Of a stretch of DNA of 64,000 nt, positions 34,341 through 41,141 are shown in pieces (the stretch's first letter is position 1; every line of letters starts with the position of its first letter). A program made the translations under genes and the position numbers. Source of the stretch: an uncultured Desulfatitalea sp. (lineage in GTDB: Bacteria > Desulfobacterota > Desulfobacteria > Desulfobacterales > Desulfosarcinaceae); assembly GCA_937868765.1 (NCBI GenBank), contig CALMNL010000006.1, positions 248,001-312,000 on the forward strand, written 5' to 3'. The notes under the pieces are model-generated. The model saw only the letters and a list, made by a program, of their open reading frames with translations. It was not told where the DNA came from and did no database searches.

Positions 34341-35360
34341 ATGGTCCCATCAAACCAAGAAAAATCCTTCGATATCCTGGTGGTGGACGACGAAGAGGCC
34401 ATCGGACGTATGTTGCAAGCCGGCATCCAATTGGCCGGTTACCGGTGCAGGGTGGCGGACGGCCCCCGTTCGGCTTTGCGGCTGTTGGCCGAGCACCCGG
34501 TGGACGTGATGGTGGCCGATATCCGGATGCCCGAAATGAGCGGCATCGAACTGGGGCGCATCGTCAAAGCCCGCTACGATGCCGATGTCATCATCATGAC
34601 CGGGTATGTGGACGACTTCAATTATGAAGATATCGTGCAGCAGGGGGCCAGTGATTTCATCCAGAAACCGGTTCGCATCGCCGAGTTCATCGCCCGCTTG
34701 AAACGGGTGATCGGAGAGAGGACCGCCAAGCAGGACCGGATTAAAGCCCTGCATGAACTCGAACTCAACCTGAACAAGCTGCATCGGGCCATGGATGGTA
34801 TCGTACAGGCCATATCGGTTGTGGTCGAGAAGCGTGATCCTTATACGGCCGGACACCAGCAGCGAGTGGCGGAACTGGCCTGTGCCGCGGCCCGGGAATT
34901 GGGACTGGGCGAAGACGATATCTATGGCTTGCGGATGGCCTGCGTGATCCATGATTTAGGTAAAATTACCGTACCGGACGGCATTCTGGCCAAACCCGGA
35001 CGACTGTCCGACTTGGAATACCAACTTATCAAGAATCATGTGCAGGCCGGATACGATATCCTCAAGCAGATCGAGTTCCCCTGGCCTCTTGCCAAAATCA
35101 TTTTGCAGCATCACGAGCGATTGGACGGCAGTGGTTATCCCAATGGGCTCCGGGGTGGCGATATCCTGATCCAGGCTCGCATTCTGGCAGTGGCCGATGT
35201 GTTCGAAACCATCGCCTCCCATAGGCCCTATCGCCCCTCGTTGGGAATGCAGCGGGCCGTGGACGAACTGCGCGACAACAGCGGGACGCTTTACGACCCG
35301 CAGGTGGTTTCGGTGTTCTTGCGCCTGGTCGAGGAGGGGCGCTTTCCGGATTACAATTAG
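34341..35360 (+). CDS. RpfG-like response regulator with HD-GYP phosphodiesterase domain
   Basis: The protein has 339 residues and starts behind AAAGGAGG. The receiver domain has phospho-Asp60 (VADIRMPEMSG) and IQKPV. After a short coiled coil comes the HD-GYP domain (~155-330) with HQQRV, His204-Asp205 in VIHDLGKI, and H257-H258 followed by ERLDGSGYP. It should hydrolyse cyclic di-GMP when phosphorylated. No GGDEF enzyme with an intact active site is in the window, and no partner kinase is adjacent. Confidence 0.94.
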   Translation: MVPSNQEKSFDILVVDDEEAIGRMLQAGIQLAGYRCRVADGPRSALRLLAEHPVDVMVADIRMPEMSGIELGRIVKARYDADVIIMTGYVDDFNYEDIVQQGASDFIQKPVRIAEFIARLKRVIGERTAKQDRIKALHELELNLNKLHRAMDGIVQAISVVVEKRDPYTAGHQQRVAELACAAARELGLGEDDIYGLRMACVIHDLGKITVPDGILAKPGRLSDLEYQLIKNHVQAGYDILKQIEFPWPLAKIILQHHERLDGSGYPNGLRGGDILIQARILAVADVFETIASHRPYRPSLGMQRAVDELRDNSGTLYDPQVVSVFLRLVEEGRFPDYN

Positions 35361-35457
35361 CCATCTGCCGGGGTTGGCGACGTGGCAGAAGTGAAGGTCG
35401 GATTTTGACCCGCTGCCGCGCAGGCGGGCCGCGGCCCTAATGCCTTCGAGGGGCCGA

Positions 35458-35838
35458 TTAAACAGCCGGAGCCCCCGCGGCCAGGATGTTTCCCACCATT
35501 TTTATGATACCTTCGATGCTGTTGCCCTTTTTTTCCACGAAGTAGACGCCGCCTCCACTCAGGCATCGCAACTGATCATCCGGATGACTATGTACGACAA
35601 TGGGGATTACGGGGACCCGCTGGCGCAGATGCTCGAAAAGCGCCTCGGCCTCCATATCCGGCAGGTCCAGGTCGACGATGGCTAGATCCAGGGCGGTGTG
35701 GCGATCGATCCAGAAGAGGACCTGCCGTCCACTCTCGGCCATCAGCACCTCATAGCCGGCATTGGCAAGCTCCCTTTGCAGAAAACGACGGACGTAGGGA
35801 TTACGATCAGCGATAAGTATAGTCGGCATATTTTTCAC
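35458..35838 (-). CDS. single-domain response regulator
   Basis: The protein has 126 residues from the GTG at 35838 (GAGAGG upstream; an ATG three codons later is possible). It is a receiver only: ILIADRNPYVRRFL, the phospho-Asp in LAIVDLDLPD and the conserved Lys region as FVEKKGNS. There is no output domain. It converges on the HD-GYP gene, separated by 97 bases. It could feed phosphate between proteins or act by binding. Confidence 0.85.
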   Translation of the reverse strand: MKNMPTILIADRNPYVRRFLQRELANAGYEVLMAESGRQVLFWIDRHTALDLAIVDLDLPDMEAEALFEHLRQRVPVIPIVVHSHPDDQLRCLSGGGVYFVEKKGNSIEGIIKMVGNILAAGAPAV

Positions 35839-35992
35839 CGTTTACCTCTCGAGCGCGCTAACTGCAGCCGCAGCAAACCCTGTGCCACAAGAAGTGTCCT
35901 CCTCCTCGGGGTGGAAACCCTTGACCCATGGTTTCCCGGCACCCGCCAAGGACTTGGGGCCGGCGTTTGGGATAGGCTTCAATGTCCGGAAT

Positions 35993-36009
35993 TTTTACAA
36001 TTTGTAAAA
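35993..36009. promoter_or_regulatory. perfect palindrome upstream of the divergent cyclase gene
   Basis: TTTTACAATTTGTAAAA is a perfect 17-bp palindrome, 76 bases before the ATG at 36085. It contains TTACA-N3-TGTAA, a core found again at 60948-60960. A dimeric repressor of TetR or a similar type is a likely ligand (inference). Confidence 0.55.
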
Positions 36010-36084
36010 CATCGCATATATGGACTTATGGCAGTATTTATGTTAGGTTAGCGCCACTTACAGACGTGATGCAGCGGCCCATCG

Positions 36085-38421
36085 ATGAAAGCTTCGAATA
36101 TGATCAAACATTTCTTTCAACCCAAACCCCTGCCGCCGCTGGATGATTTTTCACTCAAAGACTACAGCGTCTCTTTTTCCTTGGAACGGCTCATACCGGG
36201 GGTGGACAACATCCGCAGCGATGTCCTGATCAGCCCAATATTCACCAGCGCGACGCGCAAGCTTGTCGCCCAGCTCGTCGCCCGTCATGCCGGGGTCGAG
36301 AAACGAGGTGCGGACACGCCATCGGTCAGCTTCATCAAAGAAGTGGGCAGTTACAAGCAGCTCTACAAGGAAGTAATGGTGGATGCGGTCAATAAAGCCA
36401 AGGCCCGCCACGAACCCCAGATCGAATACCTGGCGCAGGCATCCGTTATCAAAATGCTGCTCGAGGAGATCCGGCTGCAATACGACCATCTGGTGGGCAG
36501 CATGAAAAAGACGGTGCGCAAGACCGACCTGACGGTGCACAACGATTGGACCGAGGCGCCCAAACTTAAAGACAAGCTTCAGCTGGTCATGCAGGACCGG
36601 GAGACCATCCTCCAGCGGGTAGGACTGGAAATCTGCAGCTACTGGGCCGAAGCCGAGCGCAAGGAGATCCGGGTCATGCGTGAGGCCATCTTCGGCAACC
36701 GCTCGACGTTCTTCGAAGACCTGCTCACCACCCCCTTGCTGCATATGCAAAACCCGGAGAATGAGATCTTCATGCTGGGGGAGTTCGACATCGCCCTCGG
36801 CCGGCGGGTCGAGGACCCGGACAAGTATGGAAACCTGCTCTATTTCATCCGTGAACTGATCCATCAGGTGGACCATCAAACCGCTCCCGATCGAAAAACG
36901 CCCCTGGACAAGCGCCTGCCGGCGCCGGAATTGAATGCGCCGGAGATTTCGGAAACCGACCAGAAGGCTTATGCCCAGAAAGTGGACGGCTGGCTGCGCT
37001 GCCTGGGCAACATCGACCTGCTGCTCAACTGGCAGCGCACCGAGGCGGAATGGCGCAACGCCAAAAAACAAAAGGCGGACCCCTCTGAAATCGCACAGCT
37101 CAAAAAGCAGGCGCTCAGACAAAAGACGGTCCTTAATTTTTTCTACTCCCAATTTCGTCAGAAGGGGGTCATTGACCGTATCGCCGCCTGTTACGAGATG
37201 CAGCCGGAATACCTAGAGTATTGCCCACCGCTGGTACCCCAGCAGATCATGCAGTACCTGGTCATGCCCAAGGCCCGCAAAGCCATCAAAGCGCGCTTGA
37301 AACGGCTGGGCAATGTATACGGCCGTGAATTTTTACTGTCGCCTCTGAACAAGAAAATCAAGGCCATGGAACAGATGTCGGCGGCCAAGCGCAAAACGTA
37401 TCTGGTCCGCTTTCTGAATGGCTTTGCGCGCTATCATCGCGATTTGAGCAACAGCGGCGTCATTCGCGAAGCCATGGAGCGGGTCCATCTGGCCGTCGAA
37501 GAGAAGACCATCACGCTTTCCCGGGAGAACAACACCCTCTACGAGTTTTTACTGAGTCATGAGCAGGAGACCTCTAAAAAGCCCATCATCAATCATGTGG
37601 TGATCAAAGCCGACGTGCGTGGTTCCACAGATATCACCCACCGCATGAATGAACGCGGGTTGAACCCGGCCTCCTATTTCAGCCTCAATTTCTTCGATCC
37701 CATTTCAGAAATTCTGTCCGAATACGACGCGGTCAAAGTCTTCATCGAGGGCGATGCCATTATTCTTTCGATTTTCGAAAGAGAAGACTCCCCCAGCGAC
37801 TGGTACGGCGTAGCGCGTGCCTGCGGCATCGCCATCAATATGTTGATCATCATCCAGCGCTACAATGAAAAAAGCCGACACAACGAGTTGCCCATCCTGG
37901 AACTGGGCATCGGCATCAGTTACCTGGGCAAGTCGCCGACCTTCCTTTTCGACGGCAACAACCGCATCATGATCTCCCCGGCCATCAACCAGGCCGACCG
38001 CCTCTCGAGCTGTTCCAAGACTGCCCGCAAGGTGTTCGCCCGCGACAGAGGGCCGTTCAACCTTTTCGTGGTGCAGAATAGATCCGACGAAGAACTGGCG
38101 GCCACGTCCGATGATCTGAATGTGCGCTACAACGTGAACGGTATCGAATTAAGCGCCGCCGCATTCGAAAAGCTCTCCAAGGAGATCGATCTGAAGGTGC
38201 TGCCCGCTGATATCCACGATCTCCACGGCATAAAGGCCATCTTGTATGTCGGCAAATTCCCCACCAAAAGCGGTCGCTACCAGCGTCTCATCGTGCGTGA
38301 AGCGCAGATTCCGGTGGTCGATCCCCAGACCTTCAAAGTGAAGCGGCTCTCTTCGCGCAAATACTACGAAGTGTGCACCCACTCGAAGCTCTACCAACTG
38401 GCCCGCGAAGCCCAGATCTGA
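36085..38421 (+). CDS. large protein with divergent class III cyclase-like C-terminal domain
   Basis: The protein has 778 residues, with no signal peptide or membrane segment. The start is uncertain: ATGs at 36085 and 36100, neither with a good ribosome-binding site. The N-terminal ~500 residues are helix-rich and basic, and unlike any domain I know. Residues ~505-690 follow the class III nucleotidyl cyclase plan: metal-type Asp510 in IKADVRGSTD, Asp557 in FIEGDAIILSIF, and MISPAINQADRLSS as the VNxAxRL helix. The last ~80 residues are beta-rich. Both Asp residues are present, so metal binding is plausible, but the product is unknown. The gene stands alone behind a perfect palindrome. Confidence 0.8.
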   Translation: MKASNMIKHFFQPKPLPPLDDFSLKDYSVSFSLERLIPGVDNIRSDVLISPIFTSATRKLVAQLVARHAGVEKRGADTPSVSFIKEVGSYKQLYKEVMVDAVNKAKARHEPQIEYLAQASVIKMLLEEIRLQYDHLVGSMKKTVRKTDLTVHNDWTEAPKLKDKLQLVMQDRETILQRVGLEICSYWAEAERKEIRVMREAIFGNRSTFFEDLLTTPLLHMQNPENEIFMLGEFDIALGRRVEDPDKYGNLLYFIRELIHQVDHQTAPDRKTPLDKRLPAPELNAPEISETDQKAYAQKVDGWLRCLGNIDLLLNWQRTEAEWRNAKKQKADPSEIAQLKKQALRQKTVLNFFYSQFRQKGVIDRIAACYEMQPEYLEYCPPLVPQQIMQYLVMPKARKAIKARLKRLGNVYGREFLLSPLNKKIKAMEQMSAAKRKTYLVRFLNGFARYHRDLSNSGVIREAMERVHLAVEEKTITLSRENNTLYEFLLSHEQETSKKPIINHVVIKADVRGSTDITHRMNERGLNPASYFSLNFFDPISEILSEYDAVKVFIEGDAIILSIFEREDSPSDWYGVARACGIAINMLIIIQRYNEKSRHNELPILELGIGISYLGKSPTFLFDGNNRIMISPAINQADRLSSCSKTARKVFARDRGPFNLFVVQNRSDEELAATSDDLNVRYNVNGIELSAAAFEKLSKEIDLKVLPADIHDLHGIKAILYVGKFPTKSGRYQRLIVREAQIPVVDPQTFKVKRLSSRKYYEVCTHSKLYQLAREAQI

Positions 38422-38450
38422 TTCCATCCGCCAACCAAAAGCACTGGCTG

Positions 38451-41141
38451 TCATACATCATCGGGAAGCTGGTCCAGATCCATCTTGAACTCATACTCCC
38501 CGCTGTCTGGCTGCCGCTGGATTTTGAATTTGAGTTTGCGCCCCAGGGCAATCATCTGAGTGTTGTCTGATACCACCGTGCCCCAGATATGTCGAACGCC
38601 TTGGGATTTGGCGATTTTCAAGCACCAGCGCAGCAGGGCCGCACCGATGCCTTTGCCGTGCCAACGGTCGCCTACGAGGATTGCGAATTCGGCCAGGCTG
38701 GGGTCGAGCCCCTTGATGATGCGGCCCACGGCGAGCATCTCTTCTTCCTGGCCGTTGCCTTCGCGAATGGCCACCATGGCGATTTCGCGGTCATAGTCGA
38801 TCTGTGTGAACCTGGCCAGCATCTCGGCGGGCATTTCCTTCAACGGGGTGAAGAAGCGAAAGTAAATACTGCGGGCCGACAGCGTGGTGAAGAGGCCCTG
38901 CAGCAGCGAGGCGTCTTCCGGGCGGATGGGGCGGATGAGGATCGTGCCCAGGCCGTTGACCGGAAGATTCATTTCGTACTCGTTGGGGTAAGGCGCGATC
39001 ACCAGATGGAAGGGGGCCGGCACCGGCGGCGTATGGATCATCACCCGGGCGCTGACGGCGCAAAAGGCGGTGCCAACCACCATCAGCGGATTGATCTCCA
39101 GGGCCTGGATTTCGGCGAAATCGGTGGCCAAGCGCCCCAGGCGGACCAGGATTTCTTCCAGCAGCAGCAGATCGGCCGGGGCATGGTCTTGATAACCGCG
39201 CAACAGGCGATGGATCCGGGTGCCCTCCACCATGCGCCGGGCCAACAGCCGATTGATGGGGGGCAGGGCCACCACCTGATCGGCGGCAATATCGGTGGCT
39301 GCGCCGCCCCAGCCGAAGGTCAAAACCGGCCCGAAACAGCTGTCTTTTTTGATGCCCAGGCGGAGTTCGGCACTAACCGGGCCCACCATCGGCTGCACGG
39401 TAACCGCTACGGGTCGATCAGGGCGGATATGGGAGCGTCCATTGGCGGTGAGTTGCTCGTACGCCTGACGTACGGCCGCCGCACTGCCCAGATTGAGGCG
39501 CACGCCGCCCCAATGGGATTTGTGCGCATGGGCCGGTGAATCGACCTTCAGGACCACCGGGTAGCCCAACCGGTCCGCCAGGGCTGCGGCTTGTTGCGCG
39601 TCAGCAGCCGCCAATGTCCGGCTGACGGGAATGCCATACGCGTCCAGGAGTTGTTTGGCCTTGATTTCTCCCAAATAGGGATCGTCGCTGCGCAATTGCT
39701 CCTGGATGATCTCCTCGGCCCGTTCCCGTTCGAATGTCAGGCGACCGGGCAACTTGACCGGGATCTGCTGCAACAGCTCCAAATTGCAGCCGTAGTGGTA
39801 AAGATCCATGAACGCGCGTACGGCACGCTCGGGGCTGTCGAAGGTGGGGATTCCGGCCAGGTTGAAAATCTCCCGTCCCCTTTCGGCCGCCGTACCGCCC
39901 AGCCAGGCCGTAACCACGGGAATGCCGGAATTGTGCAACCGCTCCACCAGCAAATGGGCCGTGTGGGTGGGATCGGACAGGGCATGGGGGGCCAGCATCA
40001 CCAGGAGGCCGTCGGTCTCAGGCGCTTTGAGCAGACACTCCACCACTGCCAGATATCGGTGGGGGGTAGCGTCGCCACGGATGTCGACTGGGTTGGCCCT
40101 GCTCCACAGGGGGGATAAGATCTGTTCCAACTGGGCGGTGGTCTCAGCGGAAAGGCCCGCCAGTTCGACGCCATGGTCGCCCAATGCATCGGCGGCCATC
40201 ACCGCCGGCCCACCGGCATTGCTTACGATAATCAAGCCGGCTTTCTGGGGCCGGGGGTGCTTGGCCACCAGTTCGGCGCAATCGAACAGTTCTTCGAAGG
40301 TGCGCACGCGCAGAATGCCGGCCCGCTTGAAAGCCGCATCGTAGACCGCATCTTCTCCGGTTTCGGCACCTGTATGGCGGGCCGCGGCCCGCTCGCCGGC
40401 AGCGGTGCGACCGGCTTTCAAGGCGATGATCGGCTTGATGCGCGAGACCGCCCGGGCGGCACTCATGAAACGACGGCCATGGGTCAGCTGCTCCATGTAC
40501 ATCACGATGCTGCTGACCCGGGGGTCGTTGCCCAGGTAGTCGACGGCATCGCCGAATTCGATATCCATCATGGACCCCAGGCTAACGAAGTAGCTGAACC
40601 CGATGCCCTCCTTCTCGGCCGAGTCGAAGATCGATGTCGCCAGGGCACCACTCTGGGAAATGAAGGCAAGGCGCCCGGCGGGCGGAAGGCGATGGGCTGC
40701 GGTGACATTGAGGTTGCAGCGGGCACAGGTCACCCCCAGGCTGCTGGGGCCGATGATGCGCAGGTTGCTGCCGGCCGCGGCCTCGAGAATCTGGGCTTCC
40801 ATCTCCAGGCCGTGGCCGCCGGTCTCCTTGCCGCCGGACGAAATGATCACCGCGCCGCCCACCCCCGCCTGGGCGCACTGCTGGATGATGCGTGGCACCG
40901 TGGTGATACGTGTAGCGATCACCGCAAGGTCCACCGGCCCTGCAATATCGGTCACCGCGCGGTGGCAGGGATGACCCCACAAGGTTCGATAGCGCTGGTT
41001 GATCGGGTGGACCTGACCCTTGTATCCCCCCTCGACCAGATTGCGCATCAGAACCGCACCAACGGTCTGGGGCCGCTCGCTGGCGCCGATGACCGCCACC
41101 GAGCGGGGATGAAAGATTCGCTCCAGATGGTGAATACTCAT
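38451..41141 (-). CDS. Pat-type protein lysine acetyltransferase (acyl-CoA synthetase-like plus GNAT)
   Basis: The protein has 896 residues. An N-terminal CoA-binding Rossmann domain (SVAVIGASERPQTVGAVLMR) is followed by succinyl-CoA ligase-like domains (ISQSGALATSIFDSAEKEG) and an ATP-grasp region (~490-700; GYPVVLKVDSPAHAHKS). A GNAT domain ends the protein (~720-890), with acetyl-CoA loop DRWHGKGIGAALL. This is the layout of Salmonella Pat/PatZ, which acetylates and silences acetyl-CoA synthetase. The ligase part is usually inactive in that family. It is probably co-transcribed with the stress protein gene 35 bases upstream. Confidence 0.92.
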   Translation of the reverse strand: MSIHHLERIFHPRSVAVIGASERPQTVGAVLMRNLVEGGYKGQVHPINQRYRTLWGHPCHRAVTDIAGPVDLAVIATRITTVPRIIQQCAQAGVGGAVIISSGGKETGGHGLEMEAQILEAAAGSNLRIIGPSSLGVTCARCNLNVTAAHRLPPAGRLAFISQSGALATSIFDSAEKEGIGFSYFVSLGSMMDIEFGDAVDYLGNDPRVSSIVMYMEQLTHGRRFMSAARAVSRIKPIIALKAGRTAAGERAAARHTGAETGEDAVYDAAFKRAGILRVRTFEELFDCAELVAKHPRPQKAGLIIVSNAGGPAVMAADALGDHGVELAGLSAETTAQLEQILSPLWSRANPVDIRGDATPHRYLAVVECLLKAPETDGLLVMLAPHALSDPTHTAHLLVERLHNSGIPVVTAWLGGTAAERGREIFNLAGIPTFDSPERAVRAFMDLYHYGCNLELLQQIPVKLPGRLTFERERAEEIIQEQLRSDDPYLGEIKAKQLLDAYGIPVSRTLAAADAQQAAALADRLGYPVVLKVDSPAHAHKSHWGGVRLNLGSAAAVRQAYEQLTANGRSHIRPDRPVAVTVQPMVGPVSAELRLGIKKDSCFGPVLTFGWGGAATDIAADQVVALPPINRLLARRMVEGTRIHRLLRGYQDHAPADLLLLEEILVRLGRLATDFAEIQALEINPLMVVGTAFCAVSARVMIHTPPVPAPFHLVIAPYPNEYEMNLPVNGLGTILIRPIRPEDASLLQGLFTTLSARSIYFRFFTPLKEMPAEMLARFTQIDYDREIAMVAIREGNGQEEEMLAVGRIIKGLDPSLAEFAILVGDRWHGKGIGAALLRWCLKIAKSQGVRHIWGTVVSDNTQMIALGRKLKFKIQRQPDSGEYEFKMDLDQLPDDV

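Follow-up and report, generated by a model that had tools for sequence, protein, structure and literature searches.

Cyclic pyrimidine nucleotides have phage defense as their best-supported role in bacteria. Among the class III nucleotidyl cyclases, a Lys together with an Asp selects ATP, and guanylyl cyclases have a Glu at the first base-selecting place and varied residues (C, S, T, H, A, or G) at the second, according to excerpts of PMC4215837. For the pyrimidine cyclases of the Pycsar systems, excerpts of PMC11224242 give F100, R142, and Q144 as the selecting residues of EaPycC, with Asp at 102 and 146, and F60, K104, and F109 as those of AnPycC, with Asp at 62 and 106; by subtraction of these residue numbers, one selecting position lies two residues ahead of the first Asp, and the others lie four or two residues ahead of the second Asp or three residues beyond it. 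A divergent branch recognized by computation, the DUF2652 cyclase-like proteins, is described in the accessible part of PMC4886424 (Biol Direct 2016) as about 250 aa in length, nearly all single-domain, and found in Actinobacteria, Bacteroidetes, and Proteobacteria; the paper lists an HD phosphohydrolase (PF01966) next to one of these proteins, W8FCI6.

Here, we describe a 778-residue protein encoded in a 64,000-nucleotide stretch of DNA from an uncultured Desulfatitalea sp. (the window, contig CALMNL010000006.1, with positions counted from its first letter), in which a predicted helical domain without a recognized fold precedes a predicted, divergent class III cyclase domain. Its catalytic residues are conserved, and its predicted base pocket is of neither the adenylyl nor the guanylyl type. 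Among the papers examined from full-text searches of the open-licence literature, none describes this cyclase family, and no paper in these searches pairs Desulfosarcina with adenylate cyclase.

A conserved gene for a 778-residue protein

The gene occupies positions 36085 to 38421 of the forward strand, exactly the reading frame delimited by a first-pass annotation made from the letters alone; it opens with ATG, encodes 778 aa, and is real and conserved in many sulfate reducers. An alternative start at M6 (36100) is possible, and several orthologues also have Met there. The highest 19-residue hydropathy is 1.36, so there is no clear membrane helix.

Pfam returned only a sub-threshold chance match to the protein, NCBIfam none, and a sequence search against solved structures nothing significant, adenylate cyclase 2w01 appearing at E 3.1 only. 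The Pfam Guanylate_cyc model has no match to the protein at E up to 10, and only 3 of 42 relatives match it, at best with E 0.011. The DUF2652 model was not listed for the protein (E up to 10), nor among 25 of the 39 families listed for the 42 relatives, in a search whose HMMER filters drop most weak matches. PADLOC reported PycC over residues 504-644 (E 2.7e-4, 18.6 bits), a model that 14 of the 42 relatives also match (E up to 1).

A scan of genome contigs confirmed 264 stretches, of which the best 80, together with the window locus, make up the 81 relatives aligned here; the other 184 lie outside the alignment. Record titles of these best 80 of 264 loci are mostly Desulfobacterales, and also include Smithella, two Syntrophaceae bins, and one Desulfobulbaceae bin. 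Of 60 sampled genomes, with the one under study counted, 34 carry a full-length or near full-length relative, namely all 11 of the genus, 16 of the 19 other family members, and 7 of the 30 from elsewhere in the order. Across the family, the gene is present in 27 of 30 sampled genomes with one full copy per genome, and wherever it is found among the 60 genomes it has a single architecture and a single full copy. Some match is seen in 39 of the 60, five of these having short matches only. Five of 297 sampled genomes of the phylum carry the gene, including that under study and G039, which also belongs to the 60-genome set.

Short gene fragments were noted in two genomes, one at G051:C169:10294-10458, with a stop inside and no full copy elsewhere in that genome, and the other at G020:C9:10766-10936, a second, C-terminal piece beside a full copy; perhaps these represent loss in progress or assembly ends. 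A split gene in G025 and G192 was considered and rejected, since both matched pieces lie within one open frame (750 and 760 aa). Searches by tblastn of 50,697 phage records and 72,556 plasmid records found no relative, none of the 25 stretches of viral contigs fitting a short pattern was confirmed as one, and PHROGs gave E 0.001 and 0.088 only, on short stretches; we therefore reject a phage or plasmid origin.

The C-terminal domain is predicted to have a class III cyclase fold

A whole-protein structure model was built from 42 sequences, with a mean pLDDT of 85.3 and a pTM of 0.62, the latter leaving the relative orientation of the two halves unsure. This model predicts a class III nucleotidyl-cyclase fold for residues 497-770, within a C-terminal domain of residues 484-778 (37534 to 38418, forward strand). 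Foldseek matched the C-terminal part to CyaC (1wc4) at E 1.7e-7, with BcPycC (7r65) at rank 50 (E 6.0e-5), and VIA-align with residues 498-770 gave Z scores of 17.3 to rhodopsin guanylyl cyclase 6aob (rmsd 3.2, 172 aligned), 17.3 to 5oyh, and 17.1 to CyaB 3r5g. All 50 VIA-align matches listed are adenylyl or guanylyl cyclases, that is, class III mononucleotide cyclases, and an oligonucleotide-making enzyme, which the first-pass annotation had entertained, finds no support among them. Aligned by profile to 15 class III domains, of which the same genome supplies six, the C-terminal domain reaches a probability of 96-97%; 16 domains had been found, and L122 was left out because its matched stretch is under 100 aa. 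The predicted fold, the profile alignment, and the catalytic residues described below all uphold the divergent class III cyclase-like domain originally proposed. Neither outcome named beforehand as counting against it, a model lacking the cyclase fold or homologues without the two Asp, was seen in the structure prediction or in the 81 relatives.

A tree of 12 of the 42 family members and 14 class III domains separates the 12 as a single clade (100/99), whose branch measures 4.9 changes per column. The point at which they join class III is supported at 74/59 only, and long branches meet there, so we claim no sister group. The phylogeny against known cyclases that had been suggested as a check thus gives one separate family clade and no clear link to PycC.

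The N-terminal domain has no recognized structural relative

Residues 1-489 (36085 to 37551, forward strand) were also modeled alone (pLDDT 86.3, pTM 0.83) and are predicted to form one helical domain, nearly all helix, without a recognized fold. Foldseek against the PDB gave nothing significant with this model (best E 0.23), nor did a comparison with viral structure models (best E 0.088); the best VIA-align Z score was 5.8, which according to the tool may reflect just a common arrangement. The N-terminus is thus of no recognized kind, as the first-pass annotation held, and a missing structural match is no proof of a new fold. Ten of its residues (G39, N42, D46, R241, D244, P381, P382, D453, S479, and N482) are present in 81 of 81 relatives, counting the best 80 of 264 loci and the window. 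Searched alone, the N-terminal part is present in 35 of the 60 genomes, 34 times in the same genes and once, in G051, as the 55-residue fragment with a stop, such that the domain has so far been seen in this cyclase family only.

Catalytic residues are conserved and base-selecting residues are non-canonical

The two Asp residues and the N-x-A-D-R-L motif that first pointed to a cyclase are where they had been placed, and lie in three short segments of the forward strand. The first, K508-A-D510 (37606 to 37614), carries the first metal-binding Asp; the second, F553-I-E555-G-D557 (37741 to 37755), carries the second; and I628-M-I-S-x3-N635-x-A-D638-R639 (37966 to 38001), followed by Leu, carries the transition-state Asn and Arg. 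In the profile alignment with the 15 class III domains, D510, D557, N635, and R639 pair with the canonical metal Asp and transition-state Asn/Arg residues. Among the 81 relatives (the best 80 of 264 loci plus the window), D510, D557, N635, and D638 are invariant, neither Asp being lost in any, and R639 is kept in 79, with K in one and Q in one. Such conservation puts the cyclase-like motifs far beyond chance.

The first-pass annotation also held that other usual residues are missing, which is correct for the base-selecting residues and not for the catalytic ones, all of which are present. Two before the first Asp, K508 is found in all 81 relatives (again the best 80 of 264 plus the window), where 12 of the 15 comparison domains have F. 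Four before the second Asp, at the Lys place of adenylyl cyclases, F553 occurs in 75 of the 81 and C in six, as against K in nine, Q in five, and S in one of the comparison domains. E555, two before the second Asp, is present in 81 of 81 in place of the I, V, L, or M of 14 of the 15, and I628, seven before the Asn and at the second base-selecting position, is likewise present in 81 of 81, where nine of the 15 have S or T. Hydrophobic residues stand at this last position in two comparison domains, Leu in L125 and the set's one Ile in L123, the PycC of a Pycsar pair discussed below; in the 14 cyclases other than L123, the places of K508, E555, I628, and F553 hold F/Y/N, I/V/L/M, S/T/A/L/R/D, and K/Q, respectively. 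The adenylyl-type pair of Lys with Asp, Thr, or Ser is not present, F553 and I628 occupying its places, nor is the guanylyl-type Glu four before the second metal Asp, where there is F or C, with Glu two before instead (E555).

Judged from the aligned sequences, the base pocket K508/F553/E555/I628 therefore fits neither the adenylyl nor the guanylyl type. The constancy of K508, E555, and I628 among the 81 relatives suggests that they are under selection, and an invariant, non-canonical pocket makes a cyclic nucleotide enzyme with a new base preference, as first imagined, more plausible. However, K508 and E555 might only pair structurally with each other, and the pocket could still suit an ordinary purine, since guanylyl cyclases vary at the second position and two of the 15 comparison domains are hydrophobic there.

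The window contains a second class III cyclase domain (L117, 19988 to 20506, reverse strand), in a 408-aa frame that matches PF00211 at E 4.2e-26 and has the usual Lys and Thr as its base-selecting residues.

Comparison with Pycsar cyclases

The PADLOC PycC profile scores higher with an adenylyl-type cyclase of the same genome (L115, with Lys and Ser at the base-selecting places) than with the window protein, at 48.8 versus 18.6 bits, and it matches something in 54 of 60 relatives. Ten loci taken from the PycC profile search comprise eight with ordinary-type residues (L124-L131), a short frame with an internal stop (L122), and one real Pycsar PycC (L123). Because the profile reaches 54 of the 60 relatives and matches ordinary cyclases, its match to the window protein is not specific.

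A Pycsar pair is encoded in the related genome G022 (G022:C2, 475-2097, on a contig of 147,797 bases), in which the 237-aa cyclase L123 (PycC E 2.6e-93, 309.8 bits) lies directly behind a 302-aa protein matching PycTIR (E 6.9e-104). L123 has Tyr two before the first Asp, Asp two before the second, and Ile seven before the Asn; the window protein lacks a Tyr or Phe at the first of these places (K508), has a polar residue at the second (E555), and its best PycC E value is 2.7e-4 against the 2.6e-93 of L123. Among the families listed for 81 upstream neighbors of 42 loci (25 of 42 from PADLOC and 25 of 90 from Pfam) there is no PycTM or PycTIR, L123 being found as a positive control, and the Pfam families listed for downstream neighbors (25 of 95) include no Pycsar effector. 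With a weak and non-specific profile match, no effector among the listed neighbors, and a real pair that looks quite different, we reject membership of Pycsar; a CRISPR or Pycsar role, which the first-pass annotation had raised, finds no support.

An HD-GYP gene recurs upstream of the cyclase

The gene had been described as standing alone, and the next gene upstream, coding for a single-domain response regulator (35458 to 35838), is indeed on the opposite strand, an arrangement repeated in some loci of the genus (cluster c10). However, a same-strand gene for a response-regulator HD-GYP phosphodiesterase-like protein (34341 to 35360, forward strand) ends about 0.7 kb ahead of the cyclase gene, and a gene of this kind is the immediate neighbor in some relatives. 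A comparison of neighbors in 43 loci (42 plus the window, out of the 81) revealed no universal partner gene.

In about 888 kb of sequence flanking the 81 loci (the best 80 of 264 plus the window), we found 18 HD-GYP genes, 17 of them upstream at no more than 0.9 kb from the cyclase (16 on its strand) and none downstream; 1 kb of flank is present upstream in 72 and downstream in 70 of the 81. The genome under study has 11 HD_5 matches, two of them side by side in one frame, or about 10 genes in 5.36 Mb, a density from which we calculate an expectation of about 1.7 HD-GYP genes for the whole of the flanks and only a fraction of a gene immediately upstream. The profile used was built from 12 of the neighboring HD-GYP domains and could favor neighbors; it nonetheless recovered all nine of the other HD-GYP genes in the genome, none with an E value above 6e-20, and with a cut-off of 1e-3 in place of 1e-8 the flank count stayed at 18. 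The HD-GYP neighbor is missing in 64 of the 81 loci, in some because the contig ends. Of 84 upstream and 83 downstream proteins, the Pfam scans took in 81 and 78, respectively, leaving out those of the duplicate L106, the downstream proteins of the near-copy L066, and a single far protein from both L108 and L111. HD_5 shares first place among the upstream families (10 of 81, among 25 of 90 families listed), and Usp is the commonest downstream (5 of 78, among 25 of 95).

Two HD-GYP architectures are represented, a response-regulator form on the Desulfatitalea side and a receiver-less form (gap 26-82 bp) in Smithella and one Syntrophaceae, the latter lying behind a HEAT-repeat gene (Pfam was run on L104 only, the other loci being assigned by BLAST cluster); L110 has a PAS-HD-GYP gene on the opposite strand. 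At L104 (4746-7942), L106, L111, and L114, the HEAT-repeat gene, receiver-less HD-GYP gene, and cyclase gene stand in a row with gaps of a few to 82 bases, resembling an operon. The usual HD-GYP motif is HHExxDGxGYP, in place of which the Smithella and Syntrophaceae proteins have HHLNPDMTGYP. The L104 and L106 proteins are identical (from one Smithella assembly) and L114 is a near copy, so these count as one case; on the tree, the HD-GYP loci fall into two clades plus L110, indicating few independent events, and the cases may come down to two or three.

The palindrome noted ahead of the gene is confirmed as a perfect 17-nt sequence, TTTTACAA-T-TTGTAAAA, at 35993 to 36009, 75 bp before the ATG. 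Its 15-nt core, TTTACAANTTGTAAA, has its sole exact site in the 5.36-Mb genome here; it is kept at the two closest orthologue loci (L035 and L066), and, judged by eye, L036 and L043 have imperfect forms of the palindrome, a possible operator. We looked for a regulon through exact sites and found none, the core having this single one. A sigma-70 consensus scan of 35300-38600 found no promoter match; by eye only, a hexamer resembling TGGACT and, after it, an AT-rich hexamer seem common to several of the orthologue upstream regions.

Discussion

We propose that the protein is probably a second-messenger cyclase with no part in defense, whose product is possibly not a purine. It would be a class III cyclase, soluble and probably acting as a homodimer, that produces a 3′,5′-cyclic mononucleotide as an internal second messenger, with a helical N-terminal domain of about 490 residues sensing a signal and controlling the C-terminal cyclase. 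D510 and D557 would hold the catalytic metals, and the Asn and Arg of the partner subunit would stabilize the transition state. Known HD-GYP substrates are c-di-GMP and cGAMP; the HD-GYP protein, whose gene several lineages carry right ahead of the cyclase gene, may antagonize the cyclase signal or break it down, and its position as a neighbor suggests that it could cleave the product, a functional partnership that we advance tentatively.

That the protein is an active nucleotidyl cyclase we regard as probable. Pseudocyclases are expected to lose some of their catalytic residues, and here the metal Asp pair and transition-state Asn are in 81 of 81 and the Arg in 79 of 81 relatives (best 80 of 264 plus the window), so a dead class III fold serving as a binding module, with the N-terminal domain as the working part, seems improbable, even with an unusual charged pair in the base pocket and a Guanylate_cyc model that reaches only three of the 42 relatives. 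An ordinary adenylyl or guanylyl cyclase with a drifted base pocket, supplying cAMP or cGMP to the cNMP-binding proteins of the cell, has nearly even chances: its catalytic residues are complete, the genome has 20 cNMP-binding matches and six PF00211 cyclase matches, and the 50 listed structural matches are all of these two kinds. The absence of both the adenylyl pair and the guanylyl Glu from their places argues against it, as does the constancy of K508, E555, and I628, which suggests selection on them. With a pocket of neither type, the enzyme could well make something other than cAMP or cGMP, an outcome that we consider a credible minority prospect.

A more specific version, in which the enzyme makes cUMP or cCMP for housekeeping signaling instead of defense, is rather unlikely. 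Consistent with it are the PycC match of the protein and of 14 of the 42 relatives, the polar residue two before the second Asp that E555 shares with Q144 of EaPycC and K104 of AnPycC (in the excerpts of PMC11224242) and with the Asp of L123, and the Ile seven before the Asn common to the family and L123. However, in 54 of 60 relatives the PycC profile finds some match, and the corresponding places in eight of its ten loci (L124-L131) and in L115 hold K or Q and a hydrophobic residue, as in ordinary cyclases. The family has Lys where pyrimidine cyclases have Tyr or Phe two before the first Asp, and the tree gives no clear link to PycC (74/59, long branches). An anti-phage cyclase of the Pycsar kind has the weak profile match in its favor, and is very improbable given one full copy in each of 27 of 30 sampled family genomes, no PycTM or PycTIR upstream among the 25 of 42 PADLOC families listed, and a related genome's pair that scores E 2.6e-93 and 6.9e-104.

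In its most ambitious form, the second-messenger reading that we favor is doubtful: Desulfobacterales and Syntrophales would share, as a core messenger unconnected with defense, a non-canonical cyclic nucleotide with a pyrimidine or another unusual base, its synthesis controlled by a sensor with a new fold and its signal ended by an HD-GYP hydrolase dedicated to it. A near family-wide cyclase whose base pocket is invariant and of a new type can be assayed directly as a candidate source of a core messenger besides cAMP and cGMP; in its N-terminal domain it would have a sensor with no recognized structural relative, and the recurrent HD-GYP neighbor together with the cyclase offers a testable make-and-break pair.

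Compared with described systems, the protein resembles class III cyclases (PF00211; CyaC 1wc5, CyaB 3r5g, and RhoGC 6aob) in its predicted fold over residues 497-770, its two metal Asp residues, and its Asn-x3-Arg pair, but it differs in having its own base-selecting residues, no Pfam match at cut-off, an extra N-terminal domain, and a separate long-branch clade. With the DUF2652 proteins, as described in the accessible part of PMC4886424, it shares the standing of a divergent class III branch recognized by computation, and one member of that group lies beside an HD phosphohydrolase; those proteins are about 250 aa and nearly all single-domain, whereas the window protein has 778 aa. Like PycC of Pycsar, it has a predicted class III fold, a polar residue two before the second metal Asp, and a weak PADLOC match; unlike PycC, it has no effector in the listed results, Lys for Tyr or Phe two before the first Asp, a core-like distribution in the family, and 778 aa with an extra domain as against about 237 aa for L123.
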